64,000 nt of DNA from an uncultured Syntrophobacterales bacterium (GTDB lineage Bacteria; Desulfobacterota; Syntrophia; Syntrophales; UBA5619). The number at the start of each line of letters is the position of its first letter. The stretch's first letter is position 1. The stretch lies in the NCBI GenBank assembly GCA_903928915.1, contig CAIYSL010000098.1:161179-225178 (forward strand), given 5' to 3'. The notes below the pieces were generated by a model, which saw only the letters and a list, made by a program, of their open reading frames with translations, made no database searches and was not told the DNA's origin. Positions 23,283 through 39,752 of this stretch are shown here, one piece after another. Both the position numbers and the translations under genes were made by a program.

Positions 23283-24617
23283 CTACCTCGGCTCCTCGCC
23301 GAGGATGCCCATCACCCAGTCGAGATTGACCCGGGCGACGATGTAGTCGCGGCGGGAGCGGCTCAGCGAACCCCTGGCCTGCCGGAGGTTCAACTCCGCG
23401 TCCTCCACCTCCAGGCGGGTCTTGACCCCCAGTTCGTACCCCTGCTCCGCCATGGCCAGGAGCCGCTCCGCCTGACCCACGGTCCCGGACAGGGAACGGA
23501 CGATCAGCTCCGCCTCCCCCAGGTTGTTCACCGCCTCGCGCGTCTCGAGGGCGATCGCATCGATCTGTTTGGCCGCGTCGATCTCGACCCGCTTCAGGTC
23601 GCTCTTGGCCTGGGCGACCCTCCCGCGGGTCCGGAGTCCGTCGAAGAAGGGATAGCTCAGTTGGATCCCCACGCCCCAGGAGGGGCCGTCGGCGTACAGG
23701 TTCGGCTGTTCGAGGTAATTCCAGCCGTAGGAGCCCCGAAGGTCGATGCGCGGTTTGTCCTGCGCGTCGGCCAGGACGACCAGCTCCCGGGCGACCCCGA
23801 CCCGATGGCGGAGGTCGGCCAGGTCCGGTCGCCGCGCACGGGCCAGGGCGAAGGCCTCCTCGTAGGAGCGAACCGGGGTGAACTCCGCCGCGAGGGTTCC
23901 CGCCGCGTCCACCTCGCCGCTTTCCATGGCGAGCAGGAAGCGGAGCCGCTCCCGGGCGGTGCGGATCTGGTTCTCCGTACGGATCGTCTCGGGGAGGGCG
24001 TTTTCCACTGACACCTCCGCCGCCAGCACGTCGTAATCGGTGGCCACCCCCGCCTGGAACTTGCGCCGCGCCTCGTCGCGGTGCCGCTTCCGCTGTTCGA
24101 GGCTGTGGCGCGCCAGGCTGTGGAGCTCCCGGGCGAGGAGCACGTCGGTGAAGGCGGCCGAGACGTCGCGGCTTGCCGCCTGCCGAAACACGCGGAGCTG
24201 TTCGTCGGCGGACTGGAGCCCCACCGTCGCCGCCCGGATGGCCGCGCTCACCTGGCCCCAGGTGAACAGCGGCTGGGTGACGACGACCTGGGCCGAACGC
24301 CGGTCCGTCGTCGCCGTCATCAGCGGCCCGTAGATCTTCTGGCTTTCGTCGCGGTCCCGGCCGAGCGTAGCCGAGGCGGTGAGCTGCGGGAAGGCGGCCG
24401 CCCGCTCCTCCACGTACCTCCCCCGCGCCCAGGCGATGTAGGCCCGGGCCTTCTCGATATCGCGGTTCTTCTCCGCAGCGATCGCCAGGGCCTGCTCCAG
24501 CGTCAACACCCGCGTCTCGGCGCCGGCCGCCCCGCCGCACAGCAGCAGAAGCGCCGCGGCGATCAGTCCCGCCCCCGCCCGGCAGACACTCCCGAGTGCC
24601 CCGTGCCGAATCTTCAT
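23283..24617 (-). CDS. TolC-family outer-membrane efflux protein
   Basis: This 444-aa protein has a signal peptide (LIAAALLLLCGGAAGAETRV) and two repeats of the outer-membrane efflux family, beginning LTLEQALAIAAEKNRDIEKA. Long amphipathic helices dominate, with the beta strands visible as TASATLGRD and LRGSYGWNY. It would form the outer-membrane channel for the RND pump encoded just upstream. The start overlaps the pump gene stop by 4 nt (ATGA). Operon order is tetR, adaptor, pump, tolC, so the four genes are co-transcribed. Confidence 0.92.
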   Translation of the reverse strand: MKIRHGALGSVCRAGAGLIAAALLLLCGGAAGAETRVLTLEQALAIAAEKNRDIEKARAYIAWARGRYVEERAAAFPQLTASATLGRDRDESQKIYGPLMTATTDRRSAQVVVTQPLFTWGQVSAAIRAATVGLQSADEQLRVFRQAASRDVSAAFTDVLLARELHSLARHSLEQRKRHRDEARRKFQAGVATDYDVLAAEVSVENALPETIRTENQIRTARERLRFLLAMESGEVDAAGTLAAEFTPVRSYEEAFALARARRPDLADLRHRVGVARELVVLADAQDKPRIDLRGSYGWNYLEQPNLYADGPSWGVGIQLSYPFFDGLRTRGRVAQAKSDLKRVEIDAAKQIDAIALETREAVNNLGEAELIVRSLSGTVGQAERLLAMAEQGYELGVKTRLEVEDAELNLRQARGSLSRSRRDYIVARVNLDWVMGILGEEPR

Positions 24618-27600
24618 GTCCGTCCGTTCCTCCGCTTCCCGAACTTTTCCGCCGCCCACCTTCCCATGTCCTCCATGAAGGTATACATCACCGGGACGAC
24701 CAGGAGCGTCAGCAGCGTGGAGGTGAGCAGCCCGCCCACCACGGCCCGGGCCATCGGCGCCCGCATCTCCGCGCCGGCGCCGATCTCCATCGCCAGCGGG
24801 AGCATCCCGAAGATCATCGCCAGGGTCGTCATGACGATCGGCCTGAGCCGCGTCCGCCCCGCGGTGATGACCGCCTCCCGCCGCTCCATGCCGCGGCCCC
24901 GCAGGACCTTGGCGTAATCGACCAGCAGGATCGCGTTTTTCGTCACCAGCCCCATGAGCATGATCAGGCCGATCAGCGACATGATGTTGATCGTGTCCCC
25001 GGTCGCCAGCAGCATCCCCGCCATCCCGACGATCGACAGCGGCAGCGAGAACATGATCGCCAAGGGCTCCAGGAAGGACTCGAACTGCGCCGCCAGGATG
25101 AAGTACACGAACAGCACCGCCAGGATCAGCGCCTCGGCCATATAGCCGAAGGACTCGGCCATGTCCGCCGCGTCGCCCGAGAACACGACCCGGTAGCCCG
25201 GCGCCAGGCTGAGCGTTGCCGCGGCCTGCTGCACCCGCTCCACGGCGGTCCCGAGCGGCAGCCCCTCGAGGTTGGCGCTGATCGTCACCTGCCGGGTGAG
25301 CTCCTGCCGGTTGATCTCCGAGGGGGTGGCGTAGGCGCGGTAGGAGACGAGGTTCGTAAGCGGCAGTAGGGCGGTCCGGCCGTCCGGCTGGACCACGGCC
25401 AGGCGGATGTTCCGGACCTGCTCCGGGTCCTCCCGGAGGCGCTCGGGGAGCCGCACGCGGACCTCCACGGCGTCGCCGTCCTCGTCCTCGTAGGTGGAAA
25501 CCAGCTCGCCGCCGATCAGCGCCCCGACGGTCCGGACGATCCGGTCGGTCATCACCCCGGCGCTGGCCGCCTTCTGCCGGTCCACGGTCAGGCGGTACTC
25601 GGGGACGTCGTGCTCCAGGCTGATCTCGATGTCCCGGATCCCCTGGATTCCATACATCCGGTCGCGGAGTTGGCCCGCGTAAGTCTTCAGCCGCAGGATG
25701 TCCGTGCCGCGGAGGTTGACCTGGAGGGGCTTCCGGCTCGAGCCGGTCTCGTCGGCCTCCTCGATCGAGGTGATCACCCCGGCGATCCCGGCGAAGCGCC
25801 GGCGGAACTCCTGCTGCACCTGCTTCTGGCTCTGGACCCGCTCCTTTTTTTCCTTGAGCTTTACGAAGATCCTGCCGCTGCGGACCGTCCCGCTGTCGCC
25901 GGCGCCGATCGTGGCGTAGGTGTGGCGGACGGCGGGGATCTCGCCGATCGCCGCCAAGAGGGCCTCCAGACGCCCCCTGCTCTCGGTGATCGAGGCGTCG
26001 GGCGCGGTCTTGAAGGTCACGATGAATTCCCCGCTGTCGATGTCCGGAAAGAAAGCGGACTGCAGCGAGCCGAAGGCGAAGATCCCGCCGGCGAAGGCCG
26101 CCAGGGCCAGCGCCAGGACCTTCTTGCGGTTGTCCAGGGACCAGCCGATCATCGCCCGGTACGAATCGGCCGCCCGGTCGAACCAGTCGTTGAACCGCTC
26201 CAGGAGCCTCCCCAGGCCGCGCCGCTTCCCCTTCGCCTCGATGGCCGGGTCGTACCAGCGCGACGAGAGCATCGGGTCGAGGGTGAAGGAGACGAACAGC
26301 GATACCAGGACGGCAAAGGCGACGGTGATCCCGAACTGGAAGAAGAACCGGCCGACGATCCCCTTCATGAACGCCACCGGCACGAACACGGCCACGATCG
26401 ACATCGTCGTGGCAAAGACGGCCAGGCCGATCTCGCTCGTCCCGTTCCGGGCCGCCAGGAAGTGCTCCTCCCCGCGCTCCAGATGGCGGACGATGTTCTC
26501 CCGCACCACGATCGCATCGTCGATCAAGAGCCCCACGGCCAGCGACAGGGCCATCATCGTCATCACGTTGAGCGACATGCCGAAGAGCTTCATGACGAGG
26601 AAGGAGGAGAGCACCGAGATCGGCAGCGTCAGACCGGTGATGACCGTCGAACGCCAGGAGTTGATGAAGCAGAACACGATCAGGATCGTCAGGACGCCGC
26701 CCATGATCAGGGTCTGCTGGACGTCCTCGAGCGACTCCCGGGTGAACACCGAACTGTCGCGCACCACCGTGAGCTGCGTCCCCGGCGGGAGCTCCTGCCG
26801 GAGAGTCTCTGCCGTCCGTTTCACCGCGTCGGCCACTTCGACGATGTTGGCCCCCGCCTGCTTGAGGATGTCCAGCGAGATCGCCGGAACCCCGTTGACC
26901 AGGCCCAGCGACCGCTGCTCCTCGACCCCGTCTCTGACCTCGGCGACCTCGCCCAGACGGACCGGCCGGCCACCCCGTTCGGCGATCACCATGTCCCGGA
27001 ATCCGTCGACGGCCGCGGGCTTGCCCGCCACCCGCAGGTTGTACTCCGTACCCCGGCGGTTGAGCCGGCCGAGCGGGGTGTTGACGTTCTCCGACCTGAG
27101 CCCGGCGACGACGGCGTCGACGCCGAGGCCGAGGGCCGAAAGCCGCTCCGGGTCGATGATCACGTTCACCTCCCGCTTGGCGGCGCCCACCAGGTCGACT
27201 TTGCCCACGCCGGCGATCCCCTCGAACCGGCGCTTGATCTGCTTCTCGATCAGGATGGTCAGGTCCCGCGGGGAGAGGGTCGTAGACTGGATCGCCAGCG
27301 ACACGATCGGCATGGCGTTGAAGTCGAGCTTCTGGATGATCGGGTCTTCGATCCCCTTGGGGAGCAGCCCCCGGGCCGCGTTCACCTTGGCCCGCGCCTC
27401 CTGGATGACGTCGTTGATCCGTTCCTCCAGCCGGAATTCGACCACCACGGTGGAGACCCCTTCCCGGGAGTAGGAGTAGATGTGCTTCACGCCGGAGATG
27501 CCGTTGACGGCCTCCTCGAGGCGCTTGGAGACCTCGCGCTCGACACTCTCCGGTGAGGCGCCGGGGAATTTCGTGACGATCGAAACGACCGGAATCTCCA

Positions 27601-27718
27601 CGTTCGGGTACATCTCGACGGAGAGCCACCGGTAGGAGAAGATCCCCAGGGTCACCAGGACCAGGACCATCACCGTCGCAAACACCGGCCGCTTGATGGA
27701 GAGGTCGGAGAGGATCAC
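24614..27718 (-). CDS. RND multidrug efflux pump, inner-membrane transporter (AcrB/HAE-like)
   Basis: This 1034-aa protein is a full-length proton-driven RND exporter. It has twelve membrane helices and two large periplasmic loops after TM1 and TM7. SIKRPVFATVMVLVLVTLGI is the usual N-terminus, FPGASPESVEREV the first pore-domain segment and VGLLIDDAIVVREN carries the paired aspartates of TM4 for proton relay. The second half repeats the pattern (LIGLIMLMGLVTKNAILLVD). It belongs to the divergent HAE branch. The substrate is unknown. It is flanked by an adaptor gene (3 nt apart) and a tolC gene (4-nt overlap). Confidence 0.95.
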   Translation of the reverse strand: MILSDLSIKRPVFATVMVLVLVTLGIFSYRWLSVEMYPNVEIPVVSIVTKFPGASPESVEREVSKRLEEAVNGISGVKHIYSYSREGVSTVVVEFRLEERINDVIQEARAKVNAARGLLPKGIEDPIIQKLDFNAMPIVSLAIQSTTLSPRDLTILIEKQIKRRFEGIAGVGKVDLVGAAKREVNVIIDPERLSALGLGVDAVVAGLRSENVNTPLGRLNRRGTEYNLRVAGKPAAVDGFRDMVIAERGGRPVRLGEVAEVRDGVEEQRSLGLVNGVPAISLDILKQAGANIVEVADAVKRTAETLRQELPPGTQLTVVRDSSVFTRESLEDVQQTLIMGGVLTILIVFCFINSWRSTVITGLTLPISVLSSFLVMKLFGMSLNVMTMMALSLAVGLLIDDAIVVRENIVRHLERGEEHFLAARNGTSEIGLAVFATTMSIVAVFVPVAFMKGIVGRFFFQFGITVAFAVLVSLFVSFTLDPMLSSRWYDPAIEAKGKRRGLGRLLERFNDWFDRAADSYRAMIGWSLDNRKKVLALALAAFAGGIFAFGSLQSAFFPDIDSGEFIVTFKTAPDASITESRGRLEALLAAIGEIPAVRHTYATIGAGDSGTVRSGRIFVKLKEKKERVQSQKQVQQEFRRRFAGIAGVITSIEEADETGSSRKPLQVNLRGTDILRLKTYAGQLRDRMYGIQGIRDIEISLEHDVPEYRLTVDRQKAASAGVMTDRIVRTVGALIGGELVSTYEDEDGDAVEVRVRLPERLREDPEQVRNIRLAVVQPDGRTALLPLTNLVSYRAYATPSEINRQELTRQVTISANLEGLPLGTAVERVQQAAATLSLAPGYRVVFSGDAADMAESFGYMAEALILAVLFVYFILAAQFESFLEPLAIMFSLPLSIVGMAGMLLATGDTINIMSLIGLIMLMGLVTKNAILLVDYAKVLRGRGMERREAVITAGRTRLRPIVMTTLAMIFGMLPLAMEIGAGAEMRAPMARAVVGGLLTSTLLTLLVVPVMYTFMEDMGRWAAEKFGKRRNGRT

Positions 27719-27721
27719 GGC

Positions 27722-28879
27722 TCAGCTCCCCTGCTTCCGGGCGATGACGAGCAGATCGCCCTCCCGGACGTTGAAGGCGCCTCGGACGACGTAGGTGTCC
27801 CCGGCCTTGAGGCCCAAGACGATCTCCACGCCGCTGTCGGTCACCTTCCCGGTCCGCACCTCCCTCAGCTGAGCGCGATCGCCCGCGACCACGAACAGCC
27901 GCGCCTTCCCGGCGAAGCTGTCCCACCCCGCAAGGGCCTCCCGGGGCACGAGGATCGTCCCGCTGCGGCGCCCGGTGACGATCCGCCCGGTGACGAACAG
28001 CCCTCCCTTGAGCTCGCCGGAGGCGTTCTCCACCTCCGCGATCACCCGGACCGACCGATCCGCTTCGCTCACCGCGGGGTTGATGAACCGCACCGTGCCG
28101 GTGAAGTTCCTGCCGGGAAGCGCATCGGTCGTGAATTCGAGTGGCTGTCCCGTCTTGAGGCCGGCCATCGCGCCCGAGGGGACGGTGACGGTAAGGTTCA
28201 GGATGCGGTTGTCCACGATGTGGAACAGGGGCGGGTTCGCCCCTGCCTCGCCGACGAGGTCGCCCACGTTCGCCCGGCGTTCGGAAACGGTCCCCGCGAT
28301 CGGGGCGACGATCAGCCCCTTGGCGAGGCGGGTCCGCACCTGGCTGAGTTCCTGCTCCCCGGCGCGGACCTGGGCGCGCGCCGCCTCGACCCGCGACGCC
28401 GCGGCTTCCGCCTCGGTCCCGGCTTCTTCGAACCCCTGGCGCGTGGCGAGCCCCGCTTCTTTGAGCTCGCGCATCCGGGCGAGCTCGCGCCGGGCGCGAT
28501 TGTCGGCGACCCGAGCCTGAAGCTCCGCGGACTTCGCCGCCTCCAGCGCCGCTTCGGTACGCTTGCCCAGGGCCTCCGTCTCCCGGACGTCGATCCGGGC
28601 AAGCGGGTCTCCCTTCTTCACCCGGATCCATTCCGTGACGAAGACCTCGCTGATAAGCCCGGTCACTTCCGATTTCACGTCCACCTCGAACTTGGGGGCG
28701 AGGGTCCCGGTTACGGCGACCCCTTCCGTCAGGGTGACGCCGGCGGCGACGGCGGTCTCCACGGCGACCGGCGGGCGGGCCGGCGCCGGGGCCGCCGGGT
28801 TCGCCGTCTCCCCGCTGCCGGAACAGGCTGCGGCGGCGAGCGCCGTTGCAATGCAGACAAGACCCAGGATGCGGTTCAT
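27722..28879 (-). CDS. RND efflux periplasmic adaptor (membrane-fusion lipoprotein)
   Basis: This 385-aa protein has a lipobox signal (ALAAAACSGSG), then the barrel-sandwich hybrid halves (VKSEVTGLISEVFV and APIAGTVSERRANVGDLV), a helical hairpin (about 100-170) and a beta-barrel region. It would link the RND pump to TolC in the periplasm. The start was chosen at the ATG that overlaps the tetR stop codon (4 nt). Translation is thus coupled to the repressor, an arrangement that lets the TetR protein control its own operon. Confidence 0.92.
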   Translation of the reverse strand: MNRILGLVCIATALAAAACSGSGETANPAAPAPARPPVAVETAVAAGVTLTEGVAVTGTLAPKFEVDVKSEVTGLISEVFVTEWIRVKKGDPLARIDVRETEALGKRTEAALEAAKSAELQARVADNRARRELARMRELKEAGLATRQGFEEAGTEAEAAASRVEAARAQVRAGEQELSQVRTRLAKGLIVAPIAGTVSERRANVGDLVGEAGANPPLFHIVDNRILNLTVTVPSGAMAGLKTGQPLEFTTDALPGRNFTGTVRFINPAVSEADRSVRVIAEVENASGELKGGLFVTGRIVTGRRSGTILVPREALAGWDSFAGKARLFVVAGDRAQLREVRTGKVTDSGVEIVLGLKAGDTYVVRGAFNVREGDLLVIARKQGS

Positions 28880-29571
28880 GGTGCTCCTTTCTTGTTCCGG
28901 CCGGGGTCGGCCGTCAGGCCGTCGAACACGAGACCCAGGAGGCGTCCGAGCGTCTCGCGGTCGATCCGGGGGGCGTGGTTTGCGATCTGGTCCTCCACGG
29001 CGATCGAGATGGTTCCCAGTACGATCCATGCCATGTCGGCCGCGTTTTCGCGCCGGAATTCATTTCGTTCGATCCCCTCTCCGATCAGCCGGGCGATCAG
29101 GTCGTGGTACCGCTGGTGGTAGGCGTCGAAATCGAACCGGGGCGCTTCGTCGGGCGGACCGAAGTAAACGGCGTGCATCAGACGGACGAAATCGCGGTCC
29201 TGCTGGACGTAGGCGAAGGCGCTGTCCAGCATCGCCGTCAGACGCGGCCGGACGCGCCCCTCCCCCTGTCGGTGGCGGTCGACGACCGCCTCGAGGCGGG
29301 CAAAATGCGTCCGCATCAGCTCGAGGAAGAGCCCCTCCTTGCTGCCGAAATAGTAGTACAGGACCGGCTTGGTTACCCCCGCCTCCGCAACCAGCTCCCG
29401 GACCGTGGTCGCGGCATAGCCCCGCCGGGTGAACAGTCCCAGCGCCGCCCCCATCAGCTTCTCCCGGATGTGCCCCTCCGGCCGAAGCGGCTCAACCGTT
29501 CGGCTTCCCCGCCCCTTCCCGGCGTCCGGCCGGCCGGCAACCGGCGACATGGCCCGTCCGTTTCTTGCCAT
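28876..29571 (-). CDS. TetR/AcrR-family repressor of the RND operon
   Basis: This 231-aa protein has a basic N-terminal extension (about 1-33) and a TetR HTH (about 34-82; LGLFTRRGYAATTVRELVAE, GVTKPVLYYYFGSKEGLF). The C-terminal part (FAYVQQDRDFVRLMHAVYFG) is the ligand-binding domain. It is the first gene of the efflux operon. A TACCGACCGGTA motif 23-34 nt upstream is a likely operator, giving autorepression relieved by a pump substrate. The start could be the ATG seven codons later. Confidence 0.9.
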   Translation of the reverse strand: MARNGRAMSPVAGRPDAGKGRGSRTVEPLRPEGHIREKLMGAALGLFTRRGYAATTVRELVAEAGVTKPVLYYYFGSKEGLFLELMRTHFARLEAVVDRHRQGEGRVRPRLTAMLDSAFAYVQQDRDFVRLMHAVYFGPPDEAPRFDFDAYHQRYHDLIARLIGEGIERNEFRRENAADMAWIVLGTISIAVEDQIANHAPRIDRETLGRLLGLVFDGLTADPGRNKKGAP

Positions 29572-32433: not shown

Positions 32434-32475
32434 GGCATTTCACCGCCCCCCGGCTCCCAGCGTCGACGCTGCGAA

Positions 32476-32703
32476 TCAGTACCGGGGTTCCCGATCCCCG
32501 GGGCTGCTCCCGGTATCCCGATCCTCCGGGACCTCGTCCGCGCCCCCCGTGGCATCGTCCCGGCGGAGAAGCCCCACCAGAAAGAGAACGACGGCGATCC
32601 CGGTTATGACCCAGACCCCGTAGCGCTTGGTCAGTACAAAGATCACCGCGCAGACGACGAGCAGCACCGCGGCGATCATCACCCGTTTCAGAACGGCACT
32701 CAT
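32476..32703 (-). CDS. Small two-helix membrane protein
   Basis: This 75-aa protein starts MSAVLKRVMIAAVLL and has two adjacent hydrophobic segments (VMIAAVLLVVCAVIFVL and VWVITGIAVVLFLVGLL) separated by TKRYG, then an acidic tail. No family is recognised. The start is well placed after a GGGGAAGG. It is divergent from the DevB-like gene. Confidence 0.6.
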   Translation of the reverse strand: MSAVLKRVMIAAVLLVVCAVIFVLTKRYGVWVITGIAVVLFLVGLLRRDDATGGADEVPEDRDTGSSPGDREPRY

Positions 32704-32838
32704 GGAACCTTCCCCTGCCCCTGTCGATGAGACGCGGCACAGGCTGTCACGGGACCGGGCAGCGGCATCCCCCCTCCCGCCGCAGGACAACCCCTCCACC
32801 GCCGGGGATCATATGCGCCTTCGCCGGCGAGTGCAATC

Positions 32839-32869
32839 ATTTCCTGATGCGGTGCCGGATTCAGGAAAT
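32839..32869. promoter_or_regulatory. Inverted-repeat operator candidate between divergent genes
   Basis: ATTTCCTGA (32839-32847) and TCAGGAAAT (32861-32869) are perfect 9-bp arms 22 bp centre to centre, that is, two helical turns apart. The site lies in the 335-nt divergent gap upstream of the DevBCA-like operon and the small membrane-protein gene. No regulator gene is adjacent. Confidence 0.45.
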
Positions 32870-32976
32870 CTCCGGAGCTGAGCGGACGAATTGTCTGTTC
32901 TTCCCCGCAGCGCGGGCACCCTCCGGGACGCCCTCCGTTTTCGGGCTGAGACGGGGGGGAGTCGGCGGATATTTTT

Positions 32977-33005
32977 TTGAAATCTGTATCAAATCCTGTT
33001 ATGTA
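32977..33005 (+). promoter_or_regulatory. Candidate promoter of the DevBCA/acyltransferase operon
   Basis: TTGAAA at 32977-32982 and TATGTA at 33000-33005 are spaced 17 nt apart, 34 nt before the first start codon. The -10 match is partial. Confidence 0.4.
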
Positions 33006-33038
33006 GCAGGCGCTTCGTTGTCTCGCCGTGAGGATCGT

Positions 33039-34088
33039 ATGAAGAACGGGCGCGCATGGGTTGGGTTAACCGGAAAGAAGCGGCTGTGGCTGCCGATCGT
33101 CGTCGCAGTCTGCGGTCTGGTGACCGCCTTTTTGCTGCTCGACAGCGGGGCGCCCTTCCGGGGAAAACCTCCCGCTGCCGCGGTCACGCCGGTGAAAACC
33201 GATGTCGCCTGCCTGGGGCGGCTCCTGCCCGGCGGACGGATCCTCCAGGTCGCCGGCCCGTCCGGCGCCCTTATCGGAGAACTTCTCGTCCGCCGCGGCC
33301 AGTGGGTCGAGCGGGGTGAAATCCTTGCCCGCCTGCGCGACCACGCCCGGGATACGGCCGCCCTCGGGCAGTCGGACAAAGAGGTCGCCGTCGCCGTAAG
33401 CGAGCTCGACCGCGTGCGCGCCGGAGAAAAAACGATCGACGCCCAGCAGGCGGCGGTCGCGCGCCAGGAGGCAGTCCTCCGCCAGGAAGAAGCCAACTAC
33501 GAGCGGATCAAGCGTCTGTACGAAAAGAGAATCATCGCCGCAAGGAATTTTGAAGAGGCCGAAACCCGCCGGGACACGGCGCGGGAATCGCTGCTCTGGG
33601 AGCGCCGTCATCTCGCGGCGCTGCAGGAGGTTCGCACGCAAGACCTGGCCCTTGCGGGAAACAGGATTGAAGCGGCCCAGGGCGCCAGGGACGTGGTCCG
33701 GGAGACTCTGGAACTGAACCTCATCCGCGCCCCCGTCTCCGGCCGCGTCCTGGAGATCTACGCCTTTCCGGGGGAAGCAGTCCCGGGCCGGGGCCTCCTC
33801 GAACTGAGCAGCGGCCGCGACATGCTGGTCGAGGCGGAAGTGTATGTCAGCGATATCGGTCGCGTCCGCCTCGGCGCGCCGGCGGTCGTGACCGGGGAGG
33901 CCTTCCCGGGAAGCCTGCGGGGCCGCGTCGTCGAGATCGTCCCCCTGGTCACCCGCAGCACGATCATGCCGATCGACCCGCTGGCCTTCTCCGACCTGCG
34001 TGTCGTCAAAGTCTGGATCAGGCTGGAGAACGCACAGACGGTCGCCCAACTGGGCAATCACCAGGTGTCCGTCACGATCAAACCATGA
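33039..34088 (+). CDS. ABC exporter membrane-fusion protein, DevB/HlyD-like
   Basis: This 349-aa protein has an N-terminal membrane anchor (LWLPIVVAVCGLVTAFLLL), a first lipoyl-like strand set (GRLLPGGRILQVAGPSGALI), a long helical hairpin (about 110-215) and the second half (APVSGRVLEIYAFPGEAV). GRVVEIVPLVTRSTIMPIDP and the final RLENAQTVAQLGNHQVSVTI resemble DevB, the adaptor of the DevBCA glycolipid exporter of heterocyst-forming cyanobacteria. GAGG lies 5 nt before the ATG; long upstream in-frame sequence looks non-coding. Its last codons overlap the permease start by 4 nt. Confidence 0.85.
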   Translation: MKNGRAWVGLTGKKRLWLPIVVAVCGLVTAFLLLDSGAPFRGKPPAAAVTPVKTDVACLGRLLPGGRILQVAGPSGALIGELLVRRGQWVERGEILARLRDHARDTAALGQSDKEVAVAVSELDRVRAGEKTIDAQQAAVARQEAVLRQEEANYERIKRLYEKRIIAARNFEEAETRRDTARESLLWERRHLAALQEVRTQDLALAGNRIEAAQGARDVVRETLELNLIRAPVSGRVLEIYAFPGEAVPGRGLLELSSGRDMLVEAEVYVSDIGRVRLGAPAVVTGEAFPGSLRGRVVEIVPLVTRSTIMPIDPLAFSDLRVVKVWIRLENAQTVAQLGNHQVSVTIKP

Positions 34089-35278
34089 AGAGCCCGCTCA
34101 CCGGAATTTTCACCGCGGCCGCCCCGCTGGGCATTCCCCTTGCCTGGCGTCAACTGACCCGTGACCGGAAACGGTTTGCCACGGCCGTCGTCGGCGTCAC
34201 CTTCGGGGTCGTCCTGATGCTCTATCAAGTGGGTCTGTACACGGCGGCAAACCGCATGGTCGTGTTTCCGCATACCGCGCTGAAGGGGGAGATCGTCATC
34301 ACCAGCCGGAATTACGAATACTTCTACGCGAACCGGCCTTTTTCCAAACGCATTCTGTACCAGGTTCAGGGTGTTCCCGAAGTGGCCTCCGTAGCCCCGC
34401 TGGGAATCGATTTTCTGAAATGGAAGAATACGGTGACCGGGGTGGACAAAGAGATCGGCGTCCTCTCCGTCAACCCCTCCCAGAACCCGTTCCTGCTTCC
34501 CGACGTGGCCGAACAGTTCGCACTGCTGACAAACGGCGAAACCGTCTTGTTCGACGCGCACTCCAAGGAGGCCGACTTCGGCAACGTCGGCGCGGCCTTC
34601 CGGAAACAGGGCGAGGTGATCTCCGAAATCGAGCATTCCCGGGTCAGGGTGAAGGGGCTGTTTTCGCTGGGGCAGACCCTGGCCAGCACCGGCCACGTCA
34701 TCGTCAGCGACCAGACCCTGGGGCGTATCCATCCCCGCCGTTCGGCCAATATGATCAACGTCGGCGTCGTGAACCTCGGACCGGGAGCCGACCCGGCGGA
34801 GCTTCGCGCCCGGATACGGGCCCTCGTGCCGGCGGATGTCCGGGTCATGACCGCCGCGGAATTTCGCGCTGAGGAACAGGAATTCTGGGTATCCCGCACG
34901 GCGATCGGATTCATCTGTCTGGCGGGGATGCTGGTCGGAATGCTCGTCGGCGGGATCGTGGTATACCAGATCCTGTATACCGAGGTAACGGATCACCTGC
35001 GGGAATATGCCACCCTCAAGGCCATGGGGATCACGGACCGGTTCCTGTTTCGCATCGTCATCACCGAGGCGTTCATTCTCCTGCTCGCAGTCGCCCTTCC
35101 GTCGACTCTCCTGGCGGCCGCGCTGTTTACGGTAACCAAGACCGGATCCGGCATGCCCACGGAGGTGACCGCCGGGGAGCTGCTGGCGGTGTTCGCCCTG
35201 GCGGCCGTCATGTGCATCATCGCCGCCCTCCTGGCAACCCGCAAACTGAAGACGGCCGACCCGGCCGATATATTCTGA
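34085..35278 (+). CDS. ABC exporter permease, DevC-like
   Basis: This 397-aa protein has one N-terminal membrane helix (RFATAVVGVTFGVVLMLYQVG), a large periplasmic domain (about 60-265) and three C-terminal helices (about 270-390), the FtsX/MacB-type topology of DevC permeases. IPLAWRQLTRDRKRF at the start and LREYATLKAMGI in the coupling-helix region are characteristic. With the adaptor and ATPase it would form an exporter that pushes a periplasmic or outer-leaflet substrate outward. It sits 3 nt before the ATPase gene. Confidence 0.88.
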   Translation: MKSPLTGIFTAAAPLGIPLAWRQLTRDRKRFATAVVGVTFGVVLMLYQVGLYTAANRMVVFPHTALKGEIVITSRNYEYFYANRPFSKRILYQVQGVPEVASVAPLGIDFLKWKNTVTGVDKEIGVLSVNPSQNPFLLPDVAEQFALLTNGETVLFDAHSKEADFGNVGAAFRKQGEVISEIEHSRVRVKGLFSLGQTLASTGHVIVSDQTLGRIHPRRSANMINVGVVNLGPGADPAELRARIRALVPADVRVMTAAEFRAEEQEFWVSRTAIGFICLAGMLVGMLVGGIVVYQILYTEVTDHLREYATLKAMGITDRFLFRIVITEAFILLLAVALPSTLLAAALFTVTKTGSGMPTEVTAGELLAVFALAAVMCIIAALLATRKLKTADPADIF

Positions 35279-35281
35279 ACC

Positions 35282-36583
35282 ATGGCCACGGAACCCTTCA
35301 TCACCATCCAGGCCCTCTCCCATTCCTTCGGTACGGGCGCGTTGAAGAAAGAGATCCTCCGGGAGGTGGCCGCCGATTTCTATCCCGGGGAAATCGTCAT
35401 CATCAGGGGACCGTCCGGTTCGGGGAAAACCACCCTGCTGACCCTCACCGGGGCGCTCCGCACCGTTCAGCAGGGAAGCATCCGGATCGGCGGAGTCGAG
35501 CTGTACAAGGCCAGGCCTGCCCAAATCATGGCGGTGCGCAGACGAATCGGGTTCATCTCCCAGGATCACAACCTGATCGCCTCCCTGTCGGCCTGTGAGA
35601 ACGTACAGCTCGCCCTGGCGATGGACCCCTCCGCAACCCCCGCGGGCTCCCGGAAGAAGGCCCGGGAACACCTGGCGATGGTGGGGCTGGGCGAACACGG
35701 CCATAAGAGACCCGGAGAGATGTCGGGCGGGCAGAAGCAGCGCGTGGCCATTGCGCGCGCCCTCATCCACCGGCCCGACATCATCATGGCCGACGAGCCG
35801 ACCGCCGCCCTGGACCGGGAGACCGGCCGGGAGGTGGTGGAACTGCTGCAGACAGCGGCGCGCCGGGAAGGGGTCGCCGTCCTGCTGGTCACCCATGACG
35901 ACCGGATCCTCGACATTGCGGACCGCATCATCACGCTGGAAGACGGCCGGCTCGAAGAGACCCACCGGGGGATGGAGCGGCTGCGCGAGGGGTTGGCTGC
36001 CCTCACCGGCCTGCTGCCCCGGTATGCCGCGGCCGCAGCCGCGGCGGCAACGGATGGTGGGGGGGCCCGCGAAGCGCTGCGGCGCCGTTTCCGGGAACTC
36101 AGGGAACCCCTGCTGCCCCGGACGGCGGCATTCAGCGCCAGGAGAATGAGCCCCCTGCTCATGGCCCGGGCCCGCAGCCTCGAAAAGCAGTCGCACGACC
36201 TTGCCCTGTGCGAAGAGACGCTCGACCGGCTGCTGACCCTCCTCTCCGCCCCTCCCTCAGACCGAATGCGCGGTATCGGGGATACCTTCTTTCAGCCGCT
36301 GGAGTTCCTTCTGGCCACGATGGCGGAAACCGGTGCAGCTTCGATCGCCCCGGAAGTCGAGCTGCTCCTGCGGCTGACGGAAGACCGCGGGGAGATGATG
36401 ACCAGCCTCCGGGAGCGGTATTTTTCCTCCGAGTCCGGACTCACCGGGGAGGAAAAACGGTATCTGTTCGCGATGACGGAGCTGTTTAGCCGGGCCGTGT
36501 ACCTCATCCGCCAGTGGGCCGAGTCCTGCCGGGTCTGGAGTGACGGCACGCAGCCATTTTCCTTGACCGCCGGGATGCTTTGA
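35282..36583 (+). CDS. ABC exporter ATPase, DevA-like, with about 200-residue C-terminal extension
   Basis: Residues 1-235 are a complete ABC ATPase: Walker A GPSGSGKTT, Q-loop FISQDHNLIASLSA, signature MSGGQKQRVA, Walker B DIIMADEP, H-loop LVTHDD. It belongs to the DevA/MacB/LolD branch. Residues about 236-433 are an added domain, alanine-rich at first and then helical (LLMARARSLEKQSHDLALCE, LEFLLATMAETG, YLIRQWAESCRVW), that I cannot assign. DevA proteins normally end near residue 235, so the extension is unusual and may couple transport to the acyltransferases encoded next. Confidence 0.85.
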   Translation: MATEPFITIQALSHSFGTGALKKEILREVAADFYPGEIVIIRGPSGSGKTTLLTLTGALRTVQQGSIRIGGVELYKARPAQIMAVRRRIGFISQDHNLIASLSACENVQLALAMDPSATPAGSRKKAREHLAMVGLGEHGHKRPGEMSGGQKQRVAIARALIHRPDIIMADEPTAALDRETGREVVELLQTAARREGVAVLLVTHDDRILDIADRIITLEDGRLEETHRGMERLREGLAALTGLLPRYAAAAAAAATDGGGAREALRRRFRELREPLLPRTAAFSARRMSPLLMARARSLEKQSHDLALCEETLDRLLTLLSAPPSDRMRGIGDTFFQPLEFLLATMAETGAASIAPEVELLLRLTEDRGEMMTSLRERYFSSESGLTGEEKRYLFAMTELFSRAVYLIRQWAESCRVWSDGTQPFSLTAGML

Positions 36584-36630
36584 GCTATTGACCTGTGCAA
36601 ATTCATCATGGTCCGGAGATCAAAGGCCCC

Positions 36631-37323
36631 ATGACAGAACGGGTCGGCTGGCCGGGGCGGCGCAACAATGACGTGCAGGTGACGACGGTCGCCCGGACGG
36701 ACGAGACGCTGTACCGTTGTTGCGAGTCCCTGGAATACCGGGTCTTCGTGGAATCCGGGTACGTGGAGGAAAACCCGGACGGCCGGATCGCTGCCTTGGA
36801 CCGGTATCCCCACCACGTCTTCCTGGCGGCCCTAACCGGGGACCGCGCGTTCCCCCCGGAACGGAGGCTGTCGGGGGTGATGCGGATCATCACTGCCCCC
36901 CATGCCCGTAAAATGGGGCCGGGCCTCTTCCCGACGCTGGACCACGGGTCAGAGCTCCGGATCGATCCGGAGAAGCTGGCACGGATCATGCGGATGGATC
37001 CCCGCCGATTCATCGATATAGCCACGATGGCCATCCCCGGGGAGAACCGGGATGCCCGGACCTCCACGGCGCTGATAACCGAGCTCATGCAGCGGGTCTG
37101 GGGGATGCCGCCGCTGCGGTACGCCCTGGCCGCAATCGATACGGTCTTCTACGAGAAGCTCAAGGCGCGGGACCTCCCCTTCGCCGACCTGGGCCCCTCG
37201 GTACTCTACTGGGGCTCCCCGTCGACGGCCACGATCGGCGATTCCTACCGGGCCCTGCGGGGGGTGAGGAGACTGGTGATGGCATACTACCGGGTGCGCG
37301 GATGGGCACGGGTGATCCGATGA
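36631..37323 (+). CDS. Autoinducer-synthase / FeeM-like N-acyltransferase
   Basis: The protein is 230 aa from the ATG; a GTG 36 nt earlier is a less likely start. LEYRVFVESGYVEENPDG, DRYPHHVFLAAL and LSGVMRIITAP follow the pattern of the acyl-homoserine-lactone-synthase/FeeM superfamily, in which acyl-ACP or acyl-CoA is joined to an amino group. RFIDIATMAIPGENRDAR occupies the acyl-carrier-contact region. FeeM-type enzymes make long-chain N-acyl amino acids. It begins 47 nt after the exporter ATPase and overlaps the GNAT gene by 4 nt. Substrates are not deducible. Confidence 0.7.
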   Translation: MTERVGWPGRRNNDVQVTTVARTDETLYRCCESLEYRVFVESGYVEENPDGRIAALDRYPHHVFLAALTGDRAFPPERRLSGVMRIITAPHARKMGPGLFPTLDHGSELRIDPEKLARIMRMDPRRFIDIATMAIPGENRDARTSTALITELMQRVWGMPPLRYALAAIDTVFYEKLKARDLPFADLGPSVLYWGSPSTATIGDSYRALRGVRRLVMAYYRVRGWARVIR

Positions 37324-38465
37324 TCCGGACACGGGACTATCTGCATCGCCAAACGGAGGCCCTGCTCCGCATGCATCCCGATCTGCGGGAACTCCGGGTC
37401 GTGACCGTGCAGGAGACAGGGTGGGATCATCAGCAGGCTTCCGATTTCGTCGAGTCCTGCTGGCGGGACTATTACCGGGCAGAGGAAGCCCGGGTGATCT
37501 TCAGCCCTGAATTCCTGGAATGGCAGCTGCCCGAACTGCGGGGAATGTGCACGCTCGACCGGGGCGGGCGCCCGGTAGGGTGCCTGATCACATTTCCGCG
37601 GTCGTATCGGATGAATGGCCGGACAGGTGTGGAACGATTCACCCTTGGTTCCTGCCTGAGCGTCCTTCCGGACCTGCGGGGCCGGGGGATTGCCCAGCTG
37701 ATGGTCTTAGCCGTTCAAGAGCTCGACCTGGACAGCGGCAGCTCCTTTTCCTGCTGCTACATCGACCGGAGAAAAGACGGGTCCGGCAGTTCTTACCGGA
37801 TGTGGGGCACCTCCCGGTCACGGGCCTATTCGCTCGCGCGCATCTCCCTGCTGGCCAAGGCCTTCGACTGGCGCAAGGCGCGGGAATACGGTCGTCTGAA
37901 TAGTGTTGCCGCCGCAGTCGTCCGGGGCGCGCAGGGCTTGTTCCCCTCCCGGCCGGGTCAAACTTTTCCGGACGGCCGCCGGGTGCAGGAGGGGAGCCGG
38001 GAGGATCTGCCGGCGGTGCGGGACCTGCTTGCCGCGGCCGATCAGTCCCTCCCCGCCAGACGGGTCTATGGGGACGAAGAATTGACGCGGATGATTGCGT
38101 TTAGGAAGAACGCCTTCCGCGCCCTGAGCTATGTCCTGCGGGACGGAGAGGGCCGCGCCGACGGTTTTCTCTGCGGCTACCGGCTCCCCGTCGGAGCGCG
38201 TGATTGGGCCTGCTTCGCCGACGGCATCGTCTTCCGCCCCGGTCTTCCCGCGCCGGTGAGACGGGCGTTTCTTTCCGAATGCGAAGGAAGGCTTCGGGAC
38301 GGGGAGGGGTGCGTGGGGATTACGCTGCTTTCCACCGCCGCCCCGGAAAATCTTCTGCAATACGGCTATGTGCCCTACGACAGCCAGATTCTCGGCATGG
38401 ATCTGTACGTCGGGACAGGGCTGACCCCTCGGAATCTCCGCGGCCTCCGGATTGAGCTGCGGTAG
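37320..38465 (+). CDS. GNAT-family N-acyltransferase, probably with two GNAT-like halves
   Basis: This 381-aa protein starts with the ATG in the stop of the previous gene. The N-terminal half (about 30-190) has a clear acyl-CoA loop, LPDLRGRGIAQLMVLAVQEL, following TLGSCLSVL, the hallmark of GNAT motif A. The C-terminal half (about 215-375; LPAVRDLLAAADQSL, GFLCGYRLP, ILGMDLYVG) looks like a second, degenerate GNAT-like domain. It likely acylates an amine, perhaps the product or substrate of the FeeM-like enzyme. A role in protein acetylation cannot be excluded. Confidence 0.72.
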   Translation: MIRTRDYLHRQTEALLRMHPDLRELRVVTVQETGWDHQQASDFVESCWRDYYRAEEARVIFSPEFLEWQLPELRGMCTLDRGGRPVGCLITFPRSYRMNGRTGVERFTLGSCLSVLPDLRGRGIAQLMVLAVQELDLDSGSSFSCCYIDRRKDGSGSSYRMWGTSRSRAYSLARISLLAKAFDWRKAREYGRLNSVAAAVVRGAQGLFPSRPGQTFPDGRRVQEGSREDLPAVRDLLAAADQSLPARRVYGDEELTRMIAFRKNAFRALSYVLRDGEGRADGFLCGYRLPVGARDWACFADGIVFRPGLPAPVRRAFLSECEGRLRDGEGCVGITLLSTAAPENLLQYGYVPYDSQILGMDLYVGTGLTPRNLRGLRIELR

Positions 38466-38522
38466 GAAGCGTGATCCGGGAAGACTCTCCGCGGCGGCGG
38501 CCTTCACCGGAGTGAAGAACCC

Positions 38523-39752
38523 ATGCATACGATCCCCTCCCCAGACCCGTTACCGCGGGCCGCAGGCCAGAGCTGGCGGCTGACCCTCGCCGTCGTCTTC
38601 GTCGCCCAGCTCCTGTCGATCGTCGGGTTCGCCTTCACCCTGCCCTTCATCCCCTTTTACATCCGGGAGCTGGGGGTCACCGATGAGCGGCTCGTCCCCC
38701 TTTGGGCCGGGTTCATCCTGGCCTCCTCGGCTCTGGTCATGGCCTTCTTCTCGCCCCTCTGGGGGTGGCTCTCCGACCGGTACGGCCGGAAGATCATGGT
38801 CGAGCGCGCCATGTTCGGCGGGGCCGTGATCACCTTCGCCATGGGGCTGATCGACACCGTGTGGCAGTTGCTCCTGCTGCGGATGCTGTCGGGGGCCGCA
38901 ACCGGAACGATTTCCGCCTCGATCGCCATGATATCCACCGTCGTTCCCCGGCAGAACCTCGGCGCCAGCCTCGGCCTCCTGCAGGTGGCGGTGTTTCTGG
39001 GGATGACCCTGGGACCCTGGATCGGGGGATTTCTCGCCGAATCGATCGGCTACCGCTCCACCTTCATGACCGGCGGCGTGATCCTGCTGATGGGCGGGCT
39101 CCTCGTCCTGGGCGGGGCCCGGGAGAAGTTCGTCCGGCCTTCGGCGGAGGAGCTCCGGAAGAGCGGCCGGCTCGTCTCGCTGCTTCGCTACGCGGGGTTC
39201 CCGGCGCTGCTCGCCCTCTTCTTCGTTTTCGAATTCACCCTCGACTTCGTCGCCCCCATCCTCCCGCTGTTCATCGAGACGCTGTGCGATACCGGGGGGG
39301 GCGGCGTGGCCCTGACGACGGGGATGCTGTATGCGGCCAGTGGCGGCGCGGCCGCGCTGGCCGCCGGAGGGATCGGCGCTCTGAGCGACCGGATCGGATA
39401 CAAGCGGATCCTCATCTTCACGCTCGCCCTGACGGCCCTGAGCATGATCCTGCACGCCCTGGCCGCGAGCATCGCCCAGCTGGCCCTCCTCAGGGTGCTG
39501 TACGGACTGGCCGCGGGTGCCATCCTGCCGGCGATGAACGCCCTGGTGGGCAGGCTCGTCCCGCCGGACAGCTACGGCAAGGCATACGGGCTCGCGGCTT
39601 CCATGACCTGCCTGGGAATGGCCGCCGGCCCGTTTTTCGGCGGGATCATGGCCTCCGGGTGGGGGTATCGCTGGCCCTTCGTCCTCGTCGGCGCCATGAT
39701 TGCGCTGATCGCCCTGCCAACGCTCGGCGCCATCCGGATGCGTGCCCGCTGA
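38523..39752 (+). CDS. MFS multidrug efflux transporter (MdtG-like)
   Basis: This 409-aa protein has twelve membrane helices. FFSPLWGWLSDRYGRKIMVE is MFS motif A, and the first helix (VVFVAQLLSIVGFAFTLPFI) with MLSGAATGTISASIAMIS fits the MdtG/drug:H+ antiporter-1 group. It is 57 nt after the GNAT gene on the same strand, so it may belong to the exporter/acyltransferase operon and export the same product or protect against it. The last helix is followed by a promoter for the cold-shock gene. Confidence 0.82.
   Translation: MHTIPSPDPLPRAAGQSWRLTLAVVFVAQLLSIVGFAFTLPFIPFYIRELGVTDERLVPLWAGFILASSALVMAFFSPLWGWLSDRYGRKIMVERAMFGGAVITFAMGLIDTVWQLLLLRMLSGAATGTISASIAMISTVVPRQNLGASLGLLQVAVFLGMTLGPWIGGFLAESIGYRSTFMTGGVILLMGGLLVLGGAREKFVRPSAEELRKSGRLVSLLRYAGFPALLALFFVFEFTLDFVAPILPLFIETLCDTGGGGVALTTGMLYAASGGAAALAAGGIGALSDRIGYKRILIFTLALTALSMILHALAASIAQLALLRVLYGLAAGAILPAMNALVGRLVPPDSYGKAYGLAASMTCLGMAAGPFFGGIMASGWGYRWPFVLVGAMIALIALPTLGAIRMRAR

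Follow-up and report, generated by a model that had tools for sequence, protein, structure and literature searches.

What would a pump of the DevBCA type be doing beside genes for acyltransferase-like proteins in an uncultured Syntrophobacterales bacterium? Most of what is known about pumps of this type comes from cyanobacteria, and established cargoes are few. The question is raised by a 64,000-nucleotide stretch of contig CAIYSL010000098.1 (assembly GCA_903928915.1, positions 161,179 to 225,178 of the forward strand), hereafter the window, in which six co-directional open reading frames (ORFs) at 33039-39752 encode, in this order, DevB-like, DevC-like, DevA-like, FeeM-like, GNAT and MFS proteins. 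We find a real variant on the theme of the DevBCA exporter, with a single occurrence: five genes make it up, its likeness to FeeM is weak, it does not recur in the genomes searched, and its DevA carries an extra domain. The features of the locus, in window positions, are as follows.

33039..34088, + strand: devB-like periplasmic adaptor (membrane fusion protein, MFP), 349 amino acids (aa); TIGR02971, 183.5 bits against a cut-off of 129; HlyD_3 (PF13437)
34085..35278, + strand: devC-like FtsX/MacB-type permease, 397 aa; TIGR01185, 346.1 bits against 290.35; FtsX (PF02687)
35282..35965, + strand: devA-like ABC ATPase domain; TIGR02982, 295.7 bits against 295.8; ABC_tran, 3e-30
35966..36583, + strand: 205-aa all-helical C-terminal extension of DevA, in the same ORF as the ATPase; predicted fold PhoU-like
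36631..37323, + strand: putative divergent N-acyltransferase-like protein of the FeeM/exosortase-acyltransferase/LuxI superfamily, 230 aa; PF21926 below cut-off; hhalign
37320..38465, + strand: long GNAT protein, 381 aa; PF00583, 21.1 bits against 20.7
38523..39752, + strand: MFS efflux protein, a resident backbone gene outside the cassette; MFS_1, 5e-56
32445..38522, no strand: segment inserted relative to the same-genus contigs L081 and L082; blastn of the relatives' intergenic DNA
32476..32799, - strand: small ORF s107, upstream of and divergent from the cassette; weak homologue in the corresponding position of L084

Same-genus genomes set the limits of this unit. They keep the order RmuC, RRM protein, (small s107 ORF), MFS, GlpK at roughly 71-97% protein identity (weaker for s107), flanked, as far as the contigs extend, by TetR on the upstream side and by PPIase and ADH on the downstream side, and they have none of the other five genes between RRM/s107 and MFS. 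This evidence comes from two same-genus lineages, one represented by a 58-kb contig (L084) and the second by two shorter ones (L081 and L082), in all of which an MFS orthologue, 71% identical, adjoins RRM/s107. In blastn searches with the relatives' intergenic DNA, similarity to L081/L082 ends near 32444 and restarts within the MFS gene at 38573. Because same-genus loci have the MFS neighborhood without the five genes, the MFS gene is resident and the cassette is devB-devC-devA-FeeM-like-GNAT. A preliminary description of this DNA had proposed a six-gene operon that included the MFS exporter; its ORFs and their order were right, but the presence of the MFS gene in cassette-less loci rules out that larger operon. 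The comparison thus gives good support to the view that the five genes at 33039-38465 arrived by horizontal transfer, as a cassette that now separates the RRM/s107 genes from the resident MFS gene, and we hold this five-gene, inserted anatomy with high confidence. The s107 ORF, with a homologue at L084:12274-12660 (54% identity over 46 aa), is perhaps also resident. An assembly artefact or chimeric join is unlikely, since the 250-kb contig carries syntenic same-genus genes on both flanks of the cassette.

Third-codon-position GC content across the six ORFs (0.76-0.91) is in the range of neighboring genes; for the cassette (0.76-0.85) it is slightly lower than for those backbone genes that are clearly coding (mostly 0.83-0.95), a small difference that counts in favor of the insertion. 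Of the several 4-nucleotide overlaps first reported, two stand, both of them ATGA (DevB/DevC and FeeM-like/GNAT); the remaining junctions are gaps of 3, 47 and 57 nucleotides. The FeeM-like ORF has an ATG start at 36631, and its stop shares the ATGA overlap at 37320 with the GNAT start. A promoter scan gave no sigma-70-type site above chance, and a weak TTGAAA-17-TATGTA upstream of devB (32977-33005) was spotted by eye only.

The exporter assignment has the backing of curated models. DevB and DevC exceed the cut-offs of theirs, and DevA covers the full length of its model with a score 0.1 bit short of the cut-off; LolD is its second-best NCBIfam model. All ATPase motifs are present in DevA: Walker A (GPSGSGKTT), signature (MSGGQ), Walker B (IIMADEPT) and H-loop (THD). 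At the level of sequence, these matches establish the gene families of DevB and DevC and point to that of DevA, and the early call of a DevBCA-like exporter is supported. In Anabaena, DevBCA exports glycolipids (PMC6161253); around the operon described here, we recognized no heterocyst glycolipid synthesis genes. A gene for an outer-membrane efflux protein does occur in the window, in a separate operon:

23283..24617, - strand: TolC-type outer-membrane efflux protein of the neighboring RND operon; OEP (PF02321), 5.5e-59

This protein is a possible outer-membrane partner for DevBCA. The operon to which it belongs, a TetR-MFP-RND-TolC efflux operon at 23283-29571 (- strand), is conserved and largely syntenic in the genus.

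The DevA protein holds a feature that the preliminary description lacked. The whole ORF (35282-36583, 433 aa) exceeds the length of the DevA model by about 205 aa, and its last 205 residues are common to the DevA proteins of two Smithellaceae metagenome-assembled genomes, with 32% identity:

L015:6964-7596, - strand: C-terminal counterpart in Smithellaceae DevA
L026:2917-3552, + strand: C-terminal counterpart in Smithellaceae DevA

The extension matches no Pfam family above cut-off and gives no PF01895 (PhoU) match up to E=10. Its AlphaFold2 model is all-helical, with a mean predicted local distance difference test score (pLDDT) of 71.5 and a predicted template-modeling score of 0.65, and a Foldseek search of the PDB returned PhoU proteins as all eight top matches (E 0.014-0.14, TM-score 0.38-0.54, best probability 1.0). 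An hhalign comparison with PhoU-bearing transporter C-termini was not significant. The predicted structure thus hints at a PhoU-like fold, and the likeness stays at the level of fold because sequence comparison fails to confirm it. In a same-family relative (L114:9397-10728, + strand), a C-terminal GAF domain occupies the same place in DevA (PF01590, 1.3e-13), and appended, regulatory-looking DevA domains may be a theme in the order Syntrophales. Upstream of devB in that relative, a further gene (L114:5856-6983, + strand) encodes a protein joining a cyclic-nucleotide-binding domain to an Rce1-like protease. We found no description of the DevA C-terminal domain, nor, in the searches made, any earlier description of an ABC exporter regulated by a PhoU-like domain built into its ATPase.

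How well does the 230-aa protein deserve the name FeeM-like? Hidden Markov model searches with the autoinducer-synthase and FeeM families matched only PF21926 (FeeM), at 15.5 bits against a gathering cut-off of 27 (E=0.015); no other Pfam family appeared up to E=1, the autoinducer synthase (LuxI) model included, and no NCBIfam model matched, including TIGR03694 and OlsB. A PF21926 search of the genome itself gave no match at E<=0.01. The case for the superfamily comes from an hhalign comparison against six Syntrophales acyltransferases of the exosortase-associated type, of which the two tested are TIGR03694 members. The protein aligned over 148 collinear columns (E=0.0028, score 27.1), from the YRVF...ENPDGR...LD motif region through the LGPSVLYWG region. 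This score exceeds those of 200 shuffled versions of the protein (best 25.5, 59 columns) and of 192 unrelated ORFs (best 20.1, 15 columns); the same comparison with a second FeeM-like group gave nothing. From the controlled profile comparison we conclude that the protein is likely a member of the FeeM/OlsB/LuxI acyltransferase superfamily, but not FeeM itself, so that the superfamily part of the initial label survives and its FeeM or autoinducer-synthase part does not. Among the exosortase-associated N-acyltransferases themselves, we noted tandem pairs, about 73% identical, at L043:1453-3001 and L051:471-2323 (- strand), directly downstream of an ORF that by eye resembles an ATPase/patatin-type protein.

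The long GNAT protein was correctly named, its PF00583 score passing the gathering cut-off by a narrow margin. Two other genomes of the phylum have homologues, one with a frame break and the other no more than a short piece near the end of its contig. A further homologue, on a Deinococcus plasmid (L089:12007-13080, + strand), lies inside a cluster of polyketide synthase (PKS)/nonribosomal peptide synthetase type, with PKS, condensation, KAS III, acyl carrier protein (ACP) and aminotransferase genes. The GNAT of a Nostoc DevBCA cluster, also considered, is similar by annotation and not homologous.

The full five-gene combination occurs in one genome only. For the FeeM-like gene, searches of 60 close relatives, 394 other genomes from across the phylum and 153 other genomes of the order (overlapping sets) gave no confident match, and it did not turn up in the genome contigs, viral contigs, plasmids or phages searched. 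Of the weak order-level matches (E 0.0015 to 0.1), the three best were opened: one lies in an ORF resembling a substrate-binding protein, one in an MFS-like ORF and one in an ORF of 379 aa that by eye does not resemble acyltransferases. DevC is present in 7 of 395 genomes from the phylum and in 11 of 153 from the order; a contig scan based on an alignment of a DevC pair, whose patterns were weak, found only two Smithellaceae, and wider DevC diversity was sampled through the genome and plasmid searches. The nearest DevBCA loci are those of the two Smithellaceae (44-45% DevC identity), where a 170-189-aa protein that is not an acyltransferase and has no Pfam match follows (L015:6365-6877, - strand; L026:3656-4168, + strand). 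No acyltransferase was recognized alongside the DevBCA locus of a same-family genome (G019), and the FeeM-like gene was absent from all DevBCA loci of related genomes examined. The preliminary description had named rarity of exporter-acyltransferase adjacency in relatives as evidence against itself; what we see amounts to a weak form of this, with the FeeM-like gene in no relative at all. In relatives at the level of the family Smithellaceae (f14), two DevC-like permeases stand in tandem; neither DevA nor DevB adjoins them, and the surrounding genes are apparently glycosyltransferase and sugar-related ones:

L115:7710-9996, - strand: tandem DevC-like permeases
L116:7991-10277, - strand: tandem DevC-like permeases
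L117:4010-6293, - strand: tandem DevC-like permeases

Our best account of the locus, which we judge evenly poised between right and wrong, is one of make and export: the cassette, gained by horizontal transfer, would both produce an N-acylated small molecule and send it out through a regulated pump. Its substrate, two-step acylation, cargo identity and regulation are parts that we infer. DevB, DevC and DevA would assemble into a MacB-type tripartite exporter, borrowing a TolC-type outer-membrane protein. The FeeM-like protein would most likely move a fatty-acyl group from acyl-ACP onto the amine of an amino acid or another small amine, and the long GNAT protein would attach another acyl group, either acetyl or a longer one, to that product or its precursor; two steps are suggested by the superfamily and by the ATGA overlap that couples the genes. 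From the inner membrane, DevBCA would drive the amphiphilic product out across the envelope, in the manner of DevBCA-HgdD with heterocyst glycolipids, and the PhoU-like end of DevA could, judging from its fold, serve as an on-board regulator of the ATPase. Acyl-transfer chemistry by the FeeM-like and GNAT pair seems to us somewhat probable, while identifying the acylated product as the cargo of the pump is more tentative, falling just short of an even chance. A more elaborate version, a mobile make-sense-export module in which a lineage-specific N-acyltransferase pair feeds an acylated amino acid or amine to DevBCA and the PhoU-like domain gates export, we consider unlikely. That the locus makes and exports an N-acylated small molecule was the original proposal, and it is still the best reading, with the exporter supported by curated models and the acyltransferase superfamily, though not the FeeM label, by a controlled profile comparison.

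Known systems offer partial parallels. The DevBCA-HgdD heterocyst glycolipid exporter of Anabaena shares the adaptor-permease-ATPase gene order and families; in contrast, the present locus has no heterocyst-glycolipid synthase genes nearby, its DevA ends in a PhoU-like domain of 205 aa, and a pair of acyltransferases is attached. DevBCA adjoins lipid or polyketide biosynthesis genes on plasmids of Thioclava, Methylocystis and Nostoc, so coupling of this exporter to local biosynthesis is a recurring pattern. The Thioclava and Methylocystis clusters include PKS, PPTase and acyl-CoA dehydrogenase genes and that of Nostoc aminotransferase, dehydrogenase and glycosyltransferase genes, whereas here there are just two acyltransferases and no carrier machinery. 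With FeeM and other type I N-acyl amino acid synthases and the exosortase-associated acyltransferases (PF21926, TIGR03694), the 230-aa protein shares length, collinear motifs and profile similarity above controls; it differs in its sub-cut-off PF21926 score, the missing TIGR03694 match, a catalytic glutamate that is possibly aspartate, and the absence of an exosortase context. The ornithine-lipid synthases OlsB and OlsA likewise combine an N-acyltransferase of the LuxI/FeeM superfamily (OlsB) with a second acyl transfer per locus, but the second enzyme here is a long GNAT rather than an OlsA-type O-acyltransferase, and NCBIfam gives no OlsB call. The preliminary description knew of no system of this composition, and we found none in the open-access literature searched, an incomplete collection.

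Several observations weigh against the make-and-export account. Genes for a carrier protein, a ligase or a peptide synthetase are absent from the cassette. None of the searches gave a close homologue of the FeeM-like protein, and its AlphaFold2 model, built from five distant homologues, failed, with a pLDDT of 33.4. The catalytic glutamate (E95 in FeeM, E103 in Nas354), shown to be needed in a FeeM-type enzyme (PMC4897644), aligns with an aspartate (FIDIATMAI) in the fullest alignment, an L-INS-i alignment of 11 sequences; three other alignments differ. As a single observation, the pairing with DevBCA carries no evidence of selection for the linkage, and the product is a guess because the cassette was found in no other genome searched. 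Finally, paralogues of DevBCA can also transport drugs or serve iron metabolism, and in Anabaena DevBCA-like pumps confer drug resistance as well (PMC8277102).

That last point leads to the alternative that survives best: an ordinary MacB-like drug or stress pump, with the two GNAT-superfamily genes as unrelated passengers of the same inserted segment (acetyltransferases that inactivate small molecules, for instance, or housekeeping modifiers) and the resident MFS gene completing a detoxification island. TetR-MFP-RND-TolC and MFS efflux genes are already in the neighborhood, the best NCBIfam model of the MFS protein is MdtG (though far below its cut-off), and relatives' DevBCA loci lack the acyltransferases. 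Yet the FeeM and exosortase-associated relatives of the 230-aa protein are long-chain N-acyltransferases rather than resistance enzymes, a GNAT homologue lies within a biosynthetic cluster, and the FeeM-like and GNAT genes are translationally coupled directly after devA. We keep this explanation in play because DevBCA paralogues can be drug pumps, and regard it as rather unlikely but of real weight. An envelope role, in which the acyltransferases modify an outer-membrane lipid or lipoprotein precursor and a MacB/Lol-like DevBCA moves the product to the outer membrane, would suit the MacB/LolCDE-type class of DevC and DevA, the LolD match of DevA and the best match of the 230-aa protein, the exosortase-associated type, which is linked to the sorting of envelope proteins (Craig 2011, cited in PMC7293339). 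In and beside the cassette, however, we recognized no gene for an exosortase, a PEP-CTERM protein or a lipoprotein, and we find this role improbable. That the 230-aa protein is no acyltransferase at all, its similarity coincidental and the five genes without a common pathway, would fit the sub-cut-off PF21926 score, the lack of any NCBIfam match or detected family and the poor structure model, but is very improbable given a profile score above all shuffles and control ORFs and collinear N- and C-terminal motifs.

The main caution in extending the make-and-export account is that the full combination occurs in one genome only. If the account is true, this compact locus of pump and acyltransferases would offer a small, expressible system for finding the cargo of a DevBCA exporter outside the cyanobacteria. 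Moreover, the C-terminal domains of DevA, PhoU-like here and GAF in a relative, suggest that control of such exporters may be exerted at the ATPase.

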